Source: Lachnospiraceae bacterium
Lineage (GTDB): Bacteria; Bacillota; Clostridia; Lachnospirales; Lachnospiraceae
NCBI GenBank assembly: GCA_022797535.1
Contig: JAAWKU010000002.1
Coordinates: 1 to 62,855 of the forward strand
DNA length: 62,855 nt
Reading direction: 5' to 3'
Shown: positions 35,842-43,089 of the stretch, piece after piece
Layout: every line of letters begins with the position of its first letter
How positions within the stretch are numbered: position 1 is the first letter of the stretch
Position numbers and translations under genes: made by a program
The notes under the pieces: model-generated
Told to the model about the DNA's origin: nothing
Databases searched by the model: none
Seen by the model: only the letters and a program-made list of their open reading frames with translations

Positions 35842-36765
35842 TTATTTTCCCAAAAGTTGTTCCGCCTGCTCCATAATCTCCCGGATTATCTCCCCGCAGG
35901 TCTGCTCCTTATGTACCAGCCCGGCGATCTGGCCTGCCATCAGGGTTCCGTTCACCACGTCCCCCTCCACCACGGCCTTGCGCAGCGCGCCCAAGGTCAG
36001 CTGCTCCAGTTCCTCAAAGGGAACTCCTGCCTTCTCCTGCTTCAGATACTCCCTGGTCATCCGATTGCGTAGCTGCCTCACGGGATGGCCATGGCTCATG
36101 CCTGTCACTTCCGAGTCAATATCCCTGGCGTCAATCACCTTCTGCTTATAGTTCTCATGTACGATGGATTCCCTGGCAACGATAAAGCGGGTACCAAGCT
36201 GAACCGCCTCTGCGCCCAGCATCATGGCTGCCGCCAGTCCCCTGCCATCCGCAATTCCTCCGGCCGCGATCACGGGTATGTTCACGGCATCCACCACCTG
36301 GGGTACCAGCGTCATGGTGGTGGCAGAACCGATATGGCCGCCGGACTCGGTTCCTTCCGCCACCACGGCGTCAGCCCCGGCCCGCTCCATCATCCGGGCC
36401 ATGGCCACGCTGGCCACCACCGGAATCACCTTTACGCCCGCCTCTTTCCAGGCAGACAGATATTTTGCCGGATTCCCGGCCCCGGTGGTCACCACCTTCA
36501 CGCCCTCTTCCACAATCACCCGGGCAATGGCGTCTGCCTCGGGATTCATCAGCATCAGGTTTACACCAAAGGGCTTCCCTGTCCTCTCTTTCACTTTCCG
36601 AATCTGTTCCCGCACAAACTCGGCAGGCGCGCCGCCGGCTCCAATCAGACCCAGCCCTCCGGCCTCGGACACGGCCGCCACCAGGTGATATTCCGCCACC
36701 CAGGCCATGCCGCCCTGAATAATGGGATACTCGATCCCCAGCATGTCAGTCACTCTTGTTTTCAT
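35842..36765 (-). CDS. fabK: Enoyl-ACP reductase II (FMN type)
   Basis: FabK performs the last reduction of each cycle, using FMN and NAD(P)H; it is the triclosan-resistant alternative to FabI. The 307-residue TIM-barrel protein belongs to the nitronate monooxygenase-like group, with IIQGGMAWVA, the flavin-binding AEGTESGGHIG (His about 144) and AAGGIADGRGLAAAMMLGA. No fabI is seen. FabK next to acpP and fabD is the usual Firmicutes layout. Confidence 0.95.
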   Translation of the reverse strand: MKTRVTDMLGIEYPIIQGGMAWVAEYHLVAAVSEAGGLGLIGAGGAPAEFVREQIRKVKERTGKPFGVNLMLMNPEADAIARVIVEEGVKVVTTGAGNPAKYLSAWKEAGVKVIPVVASVAMARMMERAGADAVVAEGTESGGHIGSATTMTLVPQVVDAVNIPVIAAGGIADGRGLAAAMMLGAEAVQLGTRFIVARESIVHENYKQKVIDARDIDSEVTGMSHGHPVRQLRNRMTREYLKQEKAGVPFEELEQLTLGALRKAVVEGDVVNGTLMAGQIAGLVHKEQTCGEIIREIMEQAEQLLGK

Positions 36766-36896
36766 CTCTTCCTCATTCCCGCATCCCGGACATCCTGTTC
36801 AGACAGAACCCGGCCAGCCTGCAAAACTGTGCCAGTCCATATCCGGATGTGCAATTTACGAATCTGCCCTCCCCAGATTGTCCCGATGCCAAAGCC

Positions 36897-37127
36897 TTAC
36901 TCCACGCCCTTGTCTTTCAGGTACTCCATCACATCCCCCACTGTGGACATTTTCTCCAGATCCTCGGAGGGAATCTCAATGTCAAACTCGTCTTCCAGGG
37001 CCATCACCATCTCAAACAGGTCCAGGGAGTCCGCATTCAGGTCCTCCTTGAAGCTGGTGCCCTCCGTGATGTCCATGCCGTCCGCGTTCAGCTTTTCCTC
37101 AATGATCTCTTTTACTTTCTCAAACAT
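36897..37127 (-). CDS. acpP: Acyl carrier protein
   Basis: The 76-residue acidic protein carries the growing acyl chain on 4'-phosphopantetheine attached to the Ser in [12 protein letters not shown]. It begins [13 protein letters not shown], the usual length and start. ATG 37127 follows AAGGAG by nine bases; an upstream in-frame alternative adds only a basic tail. It is the first gene of the FAS II operon and stands directly behind the promoter and paired operators. Confidence 0.96.
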
Positions 37128-37193
37128 ACTCTCTTCTCCTTTTCCTCTTTTCATGGTTTTCCAAACTACGTAAAATAGTCTGTCTCTCTATTT

Positions 37194-38725: not shown

Positions 38726-40720
38726 TCACTTGTTCCTGCGGAACTGCACCGGGGTCATGCCGTAGGCTTTCTTAAACAGACGGTTAAAATGTTCCACCGT
38801 CTCGTAGCCCACCTCCGCCGCAATGGATTCCACAGTGCGGTTGGTCTCCTTCAACAGGGTGCGGGCCCGCTTCATCCGGGCAGCCTTCACTGCCTCCTGA
38901 AAGGTGGTTCCCGTGTTCTCCCGGATGTATTTGGACACATAGGGCTTTGACAGATGAAATACCTGGGACATCTCTTCCAACGTCACATCCTGGCTGTGAT
39001 CCTGGATATACTTTATCATGTCCATAATCCGCTCCTGACGGCCCTGGGTCATGTTTACAGCTTTTGCCAGCTTGTTTACCGCCACCACCAGGGCCGCGAT
39101 GGAACTCTTGATGATGTCTCCGTCCATACCCACGCCCCACTGAAAACCGCCGTTTTGCAGCACGCCCACATAGGAGGCCGCCTTGGAGGAAGAGCCTCTG
39201 GACACAGCGTGTTCCTCATATACGGAGAGTTCGTAAGAGATGCCGAAATACAGCTTCAAAGCGTTGCTCACAGCGTCCAGGCGGCCGTTGCCGTCTGCCT
39301 CGATCACCCTCTTTTCCTTGCCCTGCTGAATGGTCACACTGGCGACAATCCCCTCCGGCACCTGCTTGAAATGGCAATCCGTGACGTCAAATACTTCCCG
39401 GGGCTTGATATAGGCGTCCTCAAAAATCCGGTATACATCCCCGGGAGCCAGTTCTTTGTGGCGCTGGTCAGAGACGCCCTTCATCAGATAGCCCACTTCC
39501 TCCCGCATCTGGACGGGCAGGGCCATGCCGAAATTCTGCTTCAGGATAAAGGCAATGCCGCCCTTGCCTGACTGGCTGTTGATGCGGATCACATCGGATT
39601 CGTACTCCCGGCCCAGATCCTGGGGGTCAATGGGCAGATAGGGTACATCCCAGCGCTCCCCGCTTTTGCCCTCCTTCCTCCAGGTCATGCCCTTGGAGAT
39701 GGCATCCTGGTGAGAGCCGGAAAAAGCGGTAAACACCAGATCTCCCGCATAGGGAGAACGCTCATATACATGCATGCCCGTGAGCAGTTCATATTTTGCC
39801 CGGATGGAACCGATGTGAGAGAAATCCAGCCCGGAAGCCACACCATGGCACACCATGTTCATGGCCACAGTCACCACGTCCACATTACCGGTGCGCTCAC
39901 CATTGCCAAAGAGGGTCCCTTCCACCCGGTCCGCCCCGGCCAGCACGCCGAACTCCGCGTCACTGATGCCGCATCCCCTGTCATTGTGGGGATGCACGCT
40001 GAGCACCACCGCATCCCGATATTTCAGATGTTTGTGGATATACTCAATCTGGCAGGCGAATACATGAGGCATGGCAATCTGCACAGTGGTGGGGATGTTG
40101 ATGATGGCCTTGTGGGAAGCGACGGGCTGCCACACGTCCAACACGGCATTGCATACCTCCACCGCATAGTCCACTTCCGTGCCCGGAAAACTCTCCGGAC
40201 TGTATTCAAAGCGGAAATCCCCCTCCATCTCACCCGCAATCTCAAGCAACAGCCTGGCGCCGTCCACAGCCAGCTGCTTCACTTCCTCCTTACTCTTCCC
40301 AAAAACCTGCTCCCGCTGGGCCACGGAGGTGGAATTGTACAGATGGACGATGGCGTGGGGCACACCCTCCAATGCGGCGAAGGTTTTGCGGATAATATGT
40401 TCCCGGGCCTGGGTCAGTACCTGTACGGTCACGTCCTCCGGAATCATGTGTCGCTCGATCAGCGTCCGCAGGAACTGATACTCCGTGTCGGAAGCCGCCG
40501 GGAAACCCACCTCAATCTCCTTAAAGCCGATATCCACCAGCATCTGAAAAAATTCCAGCTTCTGCTCCAGGCTCATGGGCTCGATCAGAGCCTGGTTGCC
40601 GTCCCGCAGATCCACGCTGCACCATACAGGAGGCTTCTCTATAATGTCCCTGCGCACCCAGTCATAGGTGACTTCCGGGGGCATAAAATAGGATCTGCCG
40701 TATTTTTCCGCTACATTCAT
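38726..40720 (-). CDS. leuA: 2-isopropylmalate synthase fused to a C-terminal AraC-type DNA-binding domain
   Basis: LeuA condenses acetyl-CoA with 2-oxoisovalerate, the first committed step to leucine. Residues about 1-430 are the catalytic barrel and linker of the yeast/actinobacterial-type enzyme, with DLRDGNQAL near 37-45, the metal-binding HPHNDRGCG and [10 protein letters not shown]. Residues about 440-555 are the leucine-binding regulatory domain ([21 protein letters not shown]). Residues about 557-664 add a full AraC-type pair of helix-turn-helices: [20 protein letters not shown], then [22 protein letters not shown] and the ending [12 protein letters not shown]. All lie in one frame. 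LeuA of this type normally ends near 560. A leucine T-box precedes the gene; no other leu genes are near. Confidence 0.93.
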
Positions 40721-40804: not shown

Positions 40805-41110
40805 AAAAAATCCCTACAAAATATCCACCCGAATATTTCATAGAGACGCTCTTTCAAACGCGGTACCACTCTACTTCACGGCTTTCGCCATGCGCTCACC
40901 GGCACATACATGCCCGGCCCCTTTGTACGGCGGGCGGTCCGTCCGAGCCTACTTCCCGGTGTCAACAGAGATTCCGTTCACATCCGCTTTCGGTCGGCTG
41001 CTCAAAGGCCAGTTCACCGAATGCTTCTGACTGCCTCGCACCCTCCGGCAGTTCTCTGTTGTCCCACATACAGCTACTATTCCTTGTCATTGCATTTGCG
41101 TTATTTAATT
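40805..41110 (-). promoter_or_regulatory. T-box leader of leuA, leucine specificity
   Basis: The minus strand carries the T-box sequence AGAGTGGTACCGCG (40859-40872). Stem I is closed by CAACA and TGTTG; on its 3' side GAAT is followed by CTC at 40968-40970, the expected place for the specifier codon, which reads leucine. Downstream a 16-base stem (40811-40846, with G-U pairs) and six T form the terminator. Uncharged tRNA-Leu should therefore allow leuA transcription. Confidence 0.88.
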
Positions 41111-41116
41111 GAAGAT

Positions 41117-41145
41117 ATCTTAGCACAAAGCGCCGCCGGAAGCAA
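41117..41145 (-). promoter_or_regulatory. Promoter of the leuA T-box leader
   Basis: TTGCTT (41140-41145) and TAAGAT (41117-41122) on the minus strand are 17 bp apart, a short distance before Stem I of the T-box. Confidence 0.7.
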
Positions 41146-41314
41146 GGTGTGAATTTAATCAATTTTACTGATCTTTTTTGTTGTAATAGCTTTCCTTTTT
41201 TGCCCCAAATGAGCAGCAGGCAAGGCAGGGTGAAATACTGCTTTTGCACGCATCTGCAATTCTGCATTAACCCCCGGAGGGGGAGGGCCGGGTATTTAAA
41301 CAAAAAGCGGGAGC

Positions 41315-42853
41315 CTATTTATTATATATGGTATTCATCATATTTTTCACTTTAATAAAAGCAGGTTTGGGCTGGAAAGCTCCGTCAAACAGCCGGGAAT
41401 TGGTGGTATCACCCTCACGGTAGTGATCGATCAGGCCAAAAAAGGTCACATTGGTGATATTGGCATTGCCGCCTCCTTCCGTGTCCAGCTTCGCCAGAGA
41501 CATGAAGATGGAGCCATAGCGCTGACCCTGCCTTTCAAAGCTCTTCTCATCCTCTTTGTCAACCCCCACGGACAACTCGGTAATATGGATTTCCAGATCC
41601 AGTTCTCCGAACTTGCTTATGGTGGTCTCCAGCGTACCGATGGTGGGATAATCCACGCCCCAATATCCCTGCATACCGATACCATCGATCAATTCCTTCT
41701 CCTTCAGGGAGGCGCAGAGCGCATAGATGGCGTCCCGTTTCGGGATCTGGAAGGTATTAAAATCGTTATAAAACAGCTTTACATCCTCTGCGGCATACTT
41801 CCGAGCATATGTGAAAGCCATCTCCACATAGTCCTCGCCGATGGTTTCATACCAGGGATTGGGCGTTCCGTCATTCTCCGTGCGGCACAGGAAATAACTG
41901 TCACGATCCCCCTTGTCCGGGTCCACAGCCTCGTTCACCACATCCCAGCAGTATACCACGCCGGGATATTCGTCCTGCACATGGGTCATTAATTGAGCAA
42001 TATAGCTCTCCATGCGCATAAGCATGGTTTCCTTGTCCACATACGACCCATTTTCTTCGTACCCCTCCCGGAAAAACCATTCCGGCGCCTGGGCATGCCA
42101 GACCAGCGTATGGCCCCGCATCCTCATGCCGTTGGCCTGACACCATTCCAGCGTGGGATCAATGGCGGCGAAGGACAGAACCGGGCTGCCGTCCCCTTCC
42201 TTCACGCTTTTTTGAGAACCCTGCTGATCCAGTATATAGGCGCTTTTCATCAGATTGGACATGGTGCAGCTATTGAAATGCCTCTTTGCCACCGCCATAT
42301 ACTCCGGCATGTTCAGAGTCTGGTTCTCCAATGTGCTGCCGTTGATGCCCACGCCCAGAGTGAAATAATCGCTGCAAAGATCTTTCAGCGCAGGTTCGGT
42401 CAAAGCGGCGGTCAGATCATAGGGACTGTCGCTGAACTCACTCAGCACCTGCTGCCAATAGAGATCTTCTTCCGACAGTTCCGCATCCGGGGTAGTCTCC
42501 TCAGACATAGTTTCTTCGGAGATGTTCTCCCCGGACGCGATCTCTCCAGGGGCGGTCTCCCCTGAGACGTTTTCCCCGGACGCAGTCTCTCCAGGGGCGG
42601 TCTCCCCTGAGACGTTTTCCCCGGACGCAGTCTCTCCAGGGGCGGTCTCCCCAGAGACGCTTTCCCCGGACGCGGTCTCTCCAGGGGCGGTCTCCCCTGA
42701 GATGCCTTCCCTGGACGCCTCCTCCTGACCCGCAGGACTCTGGGTGGCGGACTGGTTCTCCGGTCCTGCACCGCATCCGGCGCCGGACAGAGCCAGACAG
42801 ATCCCCAGCGTTGCAAAACCCAGCTGTCTTATAAGTGTACATTTTCTTATCAT
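41315..42853 (-). CDS. GH10 endo-1,4-beta-xylanase, lipoprotein with repeat linker
   Basis: This exported enzyme should cut xylan backbones at the cell surface. It has a lipoprotein signal ending in LSGAGC, then a Gly/Glu/Thr/Ser/Ala-rich linker of four 15-residue repeats (about 50-125), then a GH10 barrel (about 165-510). The acid/base Glu is in WDVVNEAVD and the nucleophile Glu in EIHITELSVG. GHTLVWHAQAPEWF is the usual substrate-binding strand. No carbohydrate-binding module is seen. I chose ATG 42853, after GAGAGGT. The gene is alone, with no transporter beside it. Confidence 0.93.
   Translation of the reverse strand: MIRKCTLIRQLGFATLGICLALSGAGCGAGPENQSATQSPAGQEEASREGISGETAPGETASGESVSGETAPGETASGENVSGETAPGETASGENVSGETAPGEIASGENISEETMSEETTPDAELSEEDLYWQQVLSEFSDSPYDLTAALTEPALKDLCSDYFTLGVGINGSTLENQTLNMPEYMAVAKRHFNSCTMSNLMKSAYILDQQGSQKSVKEGDGSPVLSFAAIDPTLEWCQANGMRMRGHTLVWHAQAPEWFFREGYEENGSYVDKETMLMRMESYIAQLMTHVQDEYPGVVYCWDVVNEAVDPDKGDRDSYFLCRTENDGTPNPWYETIGEDYVEMAFTYARKYAAEDVKLFYNDFNTFQIPKRDAIYALCASLKEKELIDGIGMQGYWGVDYPTIGTLETTISKFGELDLEIHITELSVGVDKEDEKSFERQGQRYGSIFMSLAKLDTEGGGNANITNVTFFGLIDHYREGDTTNSRLFDGAFQPKPAFIKVKNMMNTIYNK
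42521..42720 (-). repeat. 45-bp in-frame tandem repeat in the xylanase linker
   Basis: Four 45-bp units begin at 42541, 42586, 42631 and 42676, with a partial unit before them. Each encodes a variant of SGETAPGETASGENV. Units 42541 and 42586 are nearly identical in DNA, indicating recent duplication. Confidence 0.9.
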
Positions 42854-43089
42854 AAAGGTACCTCTCTTTCCCCAATTCACCTGTTGGGCACTGCCCGCTA
42901 CTGTACCAGAATAGCAGAGCCACGTAGCTGTTGCTCCTCAATTTTTGCTAATCTGTTATCATTTCTTGCGAAGGCTTCAAATCGAAACCTCCTATTATAT
43001 AGCCGGCCTGCGTAAATAATTCCTTCCACATCTATATTTTTGAAAAATAAAGGCGCAGGGCTTTATCACCTTGTACAAACCCAAAAAAA

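Follow-up and report, generated by a model that had tools for sequence, protein, structure and literature searches.

A 2-isopropylmalate synthase carrying an AraC-type DNA-binding domain, a probable autoregulator of leuA in Lachnospiraceae

The window, by which we mean the whole stretch of 62,855 nucleotides of Lachnospiraceae DNA that was analyzed, carries on its reverse strand an open reading frame of 664 codons without interruption (38726..40720) that is a complete 2-isopropylmalate synthase joined to a full AraC-type DNA-binding domain. We call this gene leuA-HTH. Domain profiles place a catalytic HMGL-like domain at residues 32-307 (39800..40627, reverse strand) and an IPMS post-catalytic domain at residues 327-394 (39539..39742, reverse strand), and profile and conserved stretches together place the allosteric, leucine-binding LeuA_dimer domain at residues 423-551 (39068..39454, reverse strand), where the profile match reaches 83.3 bits against a cut-off of 24.9. 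Some 33 residues separate LeuA_dimer from a complete AraC-type double helix-turn-helix (residues 585-662; 38735..38968, reverse strand), whose two helix-turn-helices (HTHs), about 100 residues, are matched by the HTH_18 and HTH_AraC profiles; the assignment also draws on a model of the tail, on structural matches and on dN/dS. The open frame and the profiles thus confirm the claim of an earlier note, made from this DNA alone, that a complete LeuA with its leucine-binding domain runs in frame into an AraC-type HTH.

The enzyme appears intact. In an alignment of 25 fused proteins, residues R39, D40, H243, H245, H337 and Y361 are all invariant, and these align with what we take to be the active-site (metal and substrate) residues R80, D81, H285, H287, H379 and Y410 of Mycobacterium tuberculosis LeuA. 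Within LeuA_dimer, a YEEHA stretch and one stretch of 10 residues are conserved among the fused proteins. The window's genome is 93.75% complete, and the fused gene is the sole full-length leuA found in it. A structure prediction, which the earlier note had called for, gave a confident model of the HTH tail alone (pLDDT 91.2), to which AraC-family DNA-binding domains match over nearly the full length; the model of the whole protein is of low quality between domains (pTM 0.52), and a fold search with it returned LeuA and other enzymes of the LeuA fold and was uninformative about domain arrangement.

The fusion is not a product of sequencing or assembly. The earlier note had allowed for an error joining two genes and for a fusion absent from related genomes; both are ruled out by one open frame across many relatives, full-length one-frame fusions being present, among the matches listed, in 40 of 61 genomes of the genus and in 59 of 250 sampled genomes of the family. 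A search of the order found at least 17 full-length fusions among 295 genomes, all those listed lying in family f1, and a search of the phylum found four among 398 genomes, again counted from the matches listed, with G859 alone outside f1. The homologue search maps the fusion mainly within that family, and we infer that the G859 copy arrived in its own family by horizontal transfer; misbinning is also possible. A scan of named genomes yielded fused genes at 35 of the 80 loci kept from the best-listed matches, the fused records including at least Lachnospiraceae, Eisenbergiella, Roseburia, Butyrivibrio, Schaedlerella, Mediterraneibacter, Lachnospira, Suipraeoptans, Lachnobacterium, Faecalicatena, Dorea and Eubacterium. 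Six genomes (G004, G016, G024, G033, G038 and G045) encode, besides the fused LeuA, a second, unfused LeuA of about 50% identity. LeuA homologues with unusually long frames, 976-1200 aa, occur in G538, G362 (family f17), G780 and G643, and may be other fusions or neighboring frames.

On a tree of 157 LeuA cores, from which the HTH columns were left out, a single clade (SH-aLRT 95) holds every HTH-encoding member; nine of its 106 members are HTH-less. The fewest HTH gains and losses that account for the pattern number nine, which we read as probably one gain followed by repeated losses, on a quick tree whose root is not inferred and whose deep order is weak. Losses of HTH and operator make only three independent pairs on the starred branches, too few for significance. 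Where the HTH is kept, it is under purifying selection like that on the catalytic domain: among 14 pairs of close relatives, dN/dS is 0.000-0.041 for the HTH (12 pairs computable) and 0.013-0.040 for the catalytic part, values that are rough because dS often approaches or exceeds 1. The recognition helices are conserved, so that, as far as tested, the earlier note's reservation that the HTH might lack DNA-contact residues does not hold.

A sequence, ATCAAnnnAAnTGATTAAAT, is common to the upstream regions of fused leuA genes at a near-fixed distance 5′ of an extended -10, and we describe it here, for the first time, as a probable operator. The predicted operator of the window is ATCAGTAAAATTGATTAAAT (41153..41172, reverse strand; PWM score 23.3), placed by motif search and spacing at about -62 to -43 of a predicted promoter (41117..41145, reverse strand) that consists of a weak -35, TTGCTT (41145-41140), a 17-nt spacer and an extended -10, TGC-TAAGAT (41122-41117). 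This promoter was recognized by reading the sequence and by its spacing; a stricter consensus scan missed it. Measured to the TG of the extended -10, the distance from the operator's start is 47 nt at 53 of 86 sites and falls within 46-48 nt at 66 of 86; at 18 sites no extended -10 of that kind was found downstream of the operator. From this spacing it follows that the operator covers about -62 to -43, upstream of the weak -35. It comprises two conserved boxes about one helical turn apart, the arrangement expected for one AraC-type domain. In the window's own genome the leuA operator, which lies upstream of the T-box described below, has the top score of 28 matches within two mismatches (reversed control, 9); it is not unique there, because two operator-like sequences away from leuA score 21.7 (L154, G000:C87:13623) and 18.6 (L153, G000:C10:6121). 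At L049, L051, L053, L054, L055, L080 and L100 the operator stands within a longer inverted repeat (GGAAAGTGA...TCACTTTCC and the like) followed by T-runs; such a repeat might act as a palindromic operator or terminate transcription of the gene upstream. At L062 (G106) two copies of the operator, directly repeated some 40 nt apart, precede leuA.

Across the loci compared, presence of the operator largely follows that of the HTH tail. An operator score of 12 or more was found at 85 of 95 HTH-encoding loci and at 1 of 59 HTH-less loci, counts in which most of the 95 had trained the matrix, three of 157 entries with less than 250 nt upstream were dropped, and L217, L218 and L225 were taken as HTH-encoding; this and the tests that follow are partly non-independent, because the motif was first seen in leuA upstream regions. 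Two split trainings, both started from one typed seed, gave the same threshold score in 55 of 61 other fused loci versus 3 of 60 unfused loci when the matrix was trained on the genus only, and in 16 of 30 genus loci versus 1 of 60 unfused when it was trained on all but the window's genus, which thus scored weaker when the matrix was trained elsewhere. The best unfused score in these trainings, 17.8, was exceeded by only 39 of the 61 and 8 of the 30 test loci. Among genomes unused in training, 13 of 16 fused loci and 0 of 20 unfused loci reached 12 (17 of 20 fused before removal of four identical to training loci), the three fused genomes below threshold scoring 4.6, 5.0 and 11.3. In an exact search of whole genomes, the 55 fused genomes yielded 26 matches, of which 23 lie upstream of leuA, and the 25 unfused genomes yielded three, none at leuA; a reversed control pattern had no match in the 80 genomes.

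Below threshold are ten of the 95 HTH-encoding loci. At L028, L035, L066 and L091 a site that is degraded or displaced stands at roughly the right spacing, L078 has a short upstream region, and L027 is the locus with the altered HTH described below; for L039, L041, L042 and L050 no explanation was found. L122, with a score of 14.1, is the one HTH-less locus over threshold.

Loci that have lost all or part of the HTH offer natural experiments. At eight HTH-less loci nested in the fused clade (L210, L211, L212, L215, L216, L219, L220 and L223) the operator score is 4.1 or less within 600 nt, and at L112, HTH-less and on a long branch, it is about 5; Rfam detects a T-box at five of those eight and at L112. 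Three loci keep the operator with HTH coding that is cut by a contig end (L217, 25.6) or split by a frameshift or stop (L218, 26.3; L225, 17.6). L225, also recorded as L393 (G137:C6), has a leuA stop with the HTH coding just after it and the operator kept, and may represent a division into two genes or a recent mutation. The HTH of L027 departs from the consensus at 8 of 28 columns that are at least 95% conserved in 93 fused proteins (the next highest number is 2); the changes include Y594E, S596A and H644L, and several are in recognition helices. L027 has no operator (-6.0) and keeps a T-box, and its sister L022 has an intact HTH and an operator. The fused copy of G859, in another family of the phylum, has an operator scoring 25.9.

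Most of the predicted binding appears to concern leuA itself. The earlier note had proposed that the protein regulates genes; this seems to hold for its own leuA above all and for leuC in a few genomes, and a wide regulon did not emerge from the searches around ilv genes. A second target seems to be leuC in most examined genomes of one genus, g207, which by tree position is Butyrivibrio (G266 is L071 and groups with Butyrivibrio records): an operator with the right -10 spacing lies 99-103 nt before leuC in six of its nine genomes, and G275 has one 293 nt before leuC. In a first set of 30 fused genomes, leuC gave six matches of 12 or more (reversed control, 0), one with the spacing (G266); a second set of 30 more genomes, searched without a reversed control, gave six spaced matches, of which g207 has five and G275 one. 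The leuC sites of G510 and G388 are identical, as are those of G266 and G368. In 30 fused genomes, matches of 12 or more were found at ilvD (2), ilvC (5) and ilvB (3), with reversed controls of 1, 2 and 1, and none had the right -10 spacing. Each ilv and leuC search covered 30 loci with 1.5-kb flanks where the contig allowed, so that an operon promoter farther upstream would be missed; the ilv genes, and with them a wide branched-chain regulon, are rejected at this level of sensitivity only, leuC being kept in g207 and G275. When the neighbors of 35 fused loci were compared by BLAST among themselves, no downstream cluster exceeded four loci, which makes a general leuA-leuBCD operon unlikely. 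One exact operator match elsewhere (L194, G106:C11:3487) is followed by the -10-like sequence TGCTAAAAT and lies about 450 nt before what reads as a PspA-like gene; it is a possible extra target. By reading, the upstream neighbor of leuA-HTH in the window (41315-42880, reverse strand) encodes a secreted GH10-type xylanase-like protein with a lipoprotein-like signal and then a repetitive GETAPGETASGEN linker, and an enoyl-ACP reductase/nitronate monooxygenase-like gene (35842-37154, reverse strand) lies beside a small acyl carrier protein-like open reading frame (36897-37154) on the same strand.

We consider it very likely that the HTH is functional and that its main target is the leuA promoter, and quite likely that fused LeuA is a bifunctional trigger enzyme, an AraC-type autoregulator that probably activates when leucine is low. 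This is in substance what the earlier note had proposed, and the proposal draws strong comparative support from the way the operator tracks the HTH; direct binding of the operator and the effect of leucine are what we infer from those comparisons. Keeping its catalytic and leucine-binding domains, the protein would bind through its C-terminal AraC-type domain to the operator of about 20 bp just upstream of its own -35. At low leucine, a LeuA dimer on the operator would help RNA polymerase at the weak promoter; leucine would inhibit the enzyme and release or reorient the HTH. It strikes us as likely that DNA binding is switched by leucine at the regulatory domain, through which leucine also exerts its inhibition of the enzyme, with the result that leuA is transcribed under leucine shortage. 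Class II AraC-type activators have their site just upstream of the -35, as here, and since the operator is placed upstream of a -35 that is weak and accompanied by an extended -10, we judge it reasonably likely to be an activator site of that type.

The same site might instead serve repression, leucine-loaded LeuA blocking the promoter through it and letting go when leucine is absent. The comparative evidence for binding applies equally to such an autorepressor, a passage in PMC8249747 describes PutA as repressing its own promoter when no substrate is present, and an inverted repeat reaches over the -35 in part of the sites (arms of at least 8 in 18 of 71 operator sites, and in 0.3% in shuffles). 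The conserved 20 bp, however, stop some 7 nt short of the -35 on its upstream side, and the match of the -35 averages 3.3 of 6 (2.5 in shuffles), so that the promoter looks dependent on help; we regard repression as an unlikely though serious possibility.

The window also has a T-box leader (40839..41099, reverse strand), identified by Rfam and by reading, whose specifier by eye is CUG (leucine). A terminator-like hairpin with a T-run stands at the end of the leader (40810..40847, reverse strand); one was found versus 0.8 expected in shuffles, and its place fits a T-box terminator. A T-box reads tRNA charging. The one here controls the same gene as the predicted operator and, unlike the fused LeuA protein, is an RNA element; it would be a second check, on transcript elongation. 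Rfam, at its gathering score, which would miss weaker T-boxes, finds one at 10 of 45 HTH-encoding loci (the window, 6 of 20, 3 of 20 and 0 of 4) versus 20 of 27 HTH-less loci (12 of 16 and 8 of 11), in a sample of the window and 40 fused loci, 16 HTH-less loci chosen for small size and 15 further loci; a looser regular expression points in the same direction (19 of 95 versus 39 of 59). The fusion thus tends, on these counts, to stand in place of the T-box, and the window keeps both. The earlier suggestion of two leucine signals accordingly applies to the window and otherwise to a minority of fused loci, because most of the fused loci examined have no detected T-box; there the enzyme-regulator seems to have taken the T-box's place. 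The signal might also be substrate occupancy (2-ketoisovalerate or acetyl-CoA) or oligomeric state, PutA being described in a passage of PMC8249747 as a trigger enzyme that responds to its substrate; we think this improbable, given that the HTH follows directly on the leucine-binding domain and that the T-box seemingly replaced is, by the specifier read in the window, of the leucine type.

That the HTH is structural or vestigial and another regulator binds the upstream motif and controls leuA, as the many other AraC-type proteins of the window's genome might supply, is very improbable in view of the purifying selection on the HTH, the absence of the operator in HTH-less relatives, the joint degeneration of operator and HTH in L027, and the site at G859, outside the family.

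Trigger enzymes such as PutA, BirA and NadR resemble fused LeuA in combining a metabolic enzyme and a DNA-binding regulator in one protein; what sets fused LeuA apart is that the enzyme is biosynthetic, has a feedback domain and bears an AraC-type domain at its C-terminus. Known trigger enzymes are few: a passage in PMC8249747 names five in E. coli, LeuA not among them, and describes PutA as binding only the putA/putP spacer. With AraC, MarA, SoxS and Rob, of the AraC/XylS family, fused LeuA shares the double HTH, which matches theirs in structure over nearly the full length of the domain, and it has, unlike those regulators, a complete enzyme and allosteric domain in place of the usual ligand domain. 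In Ada, a repair protein activated by self-methylation, an AraC-type HTH is part of a DNA repair methyltransferase, which unlike fused LeuA is not an allosteric biosynthetic enzyme. Among the titles and abstract openings listed in literature searches, none describes a LeuA-AraC protein.

We incline, if only slightly, to a broader account, in which a feedback-inhibited biosynthetic enzyme turned into the leucine-responsive transcription factor of its own gene. Catalysis and operator binding would both be governed from a single allosteric site, and leuA, as a self-contained feedback circuit, would have displaced the leucine T-box riboswitch over a large part of the Lachnospiraceae before leuC was added in one genus. 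Fused LeuA would be an allosteric biosynthetic enzyme that works as an AraC-type regulator; it occurs in many Lachnospiraceae of gut and rumen, and its operator and cases of natural loss are at hand. The change from enzyme to transcription factor, and the way a protein may take over control from a riboswitch, become directly testable, and a candidate leucine-responsive pair of domain and operator is on offer.
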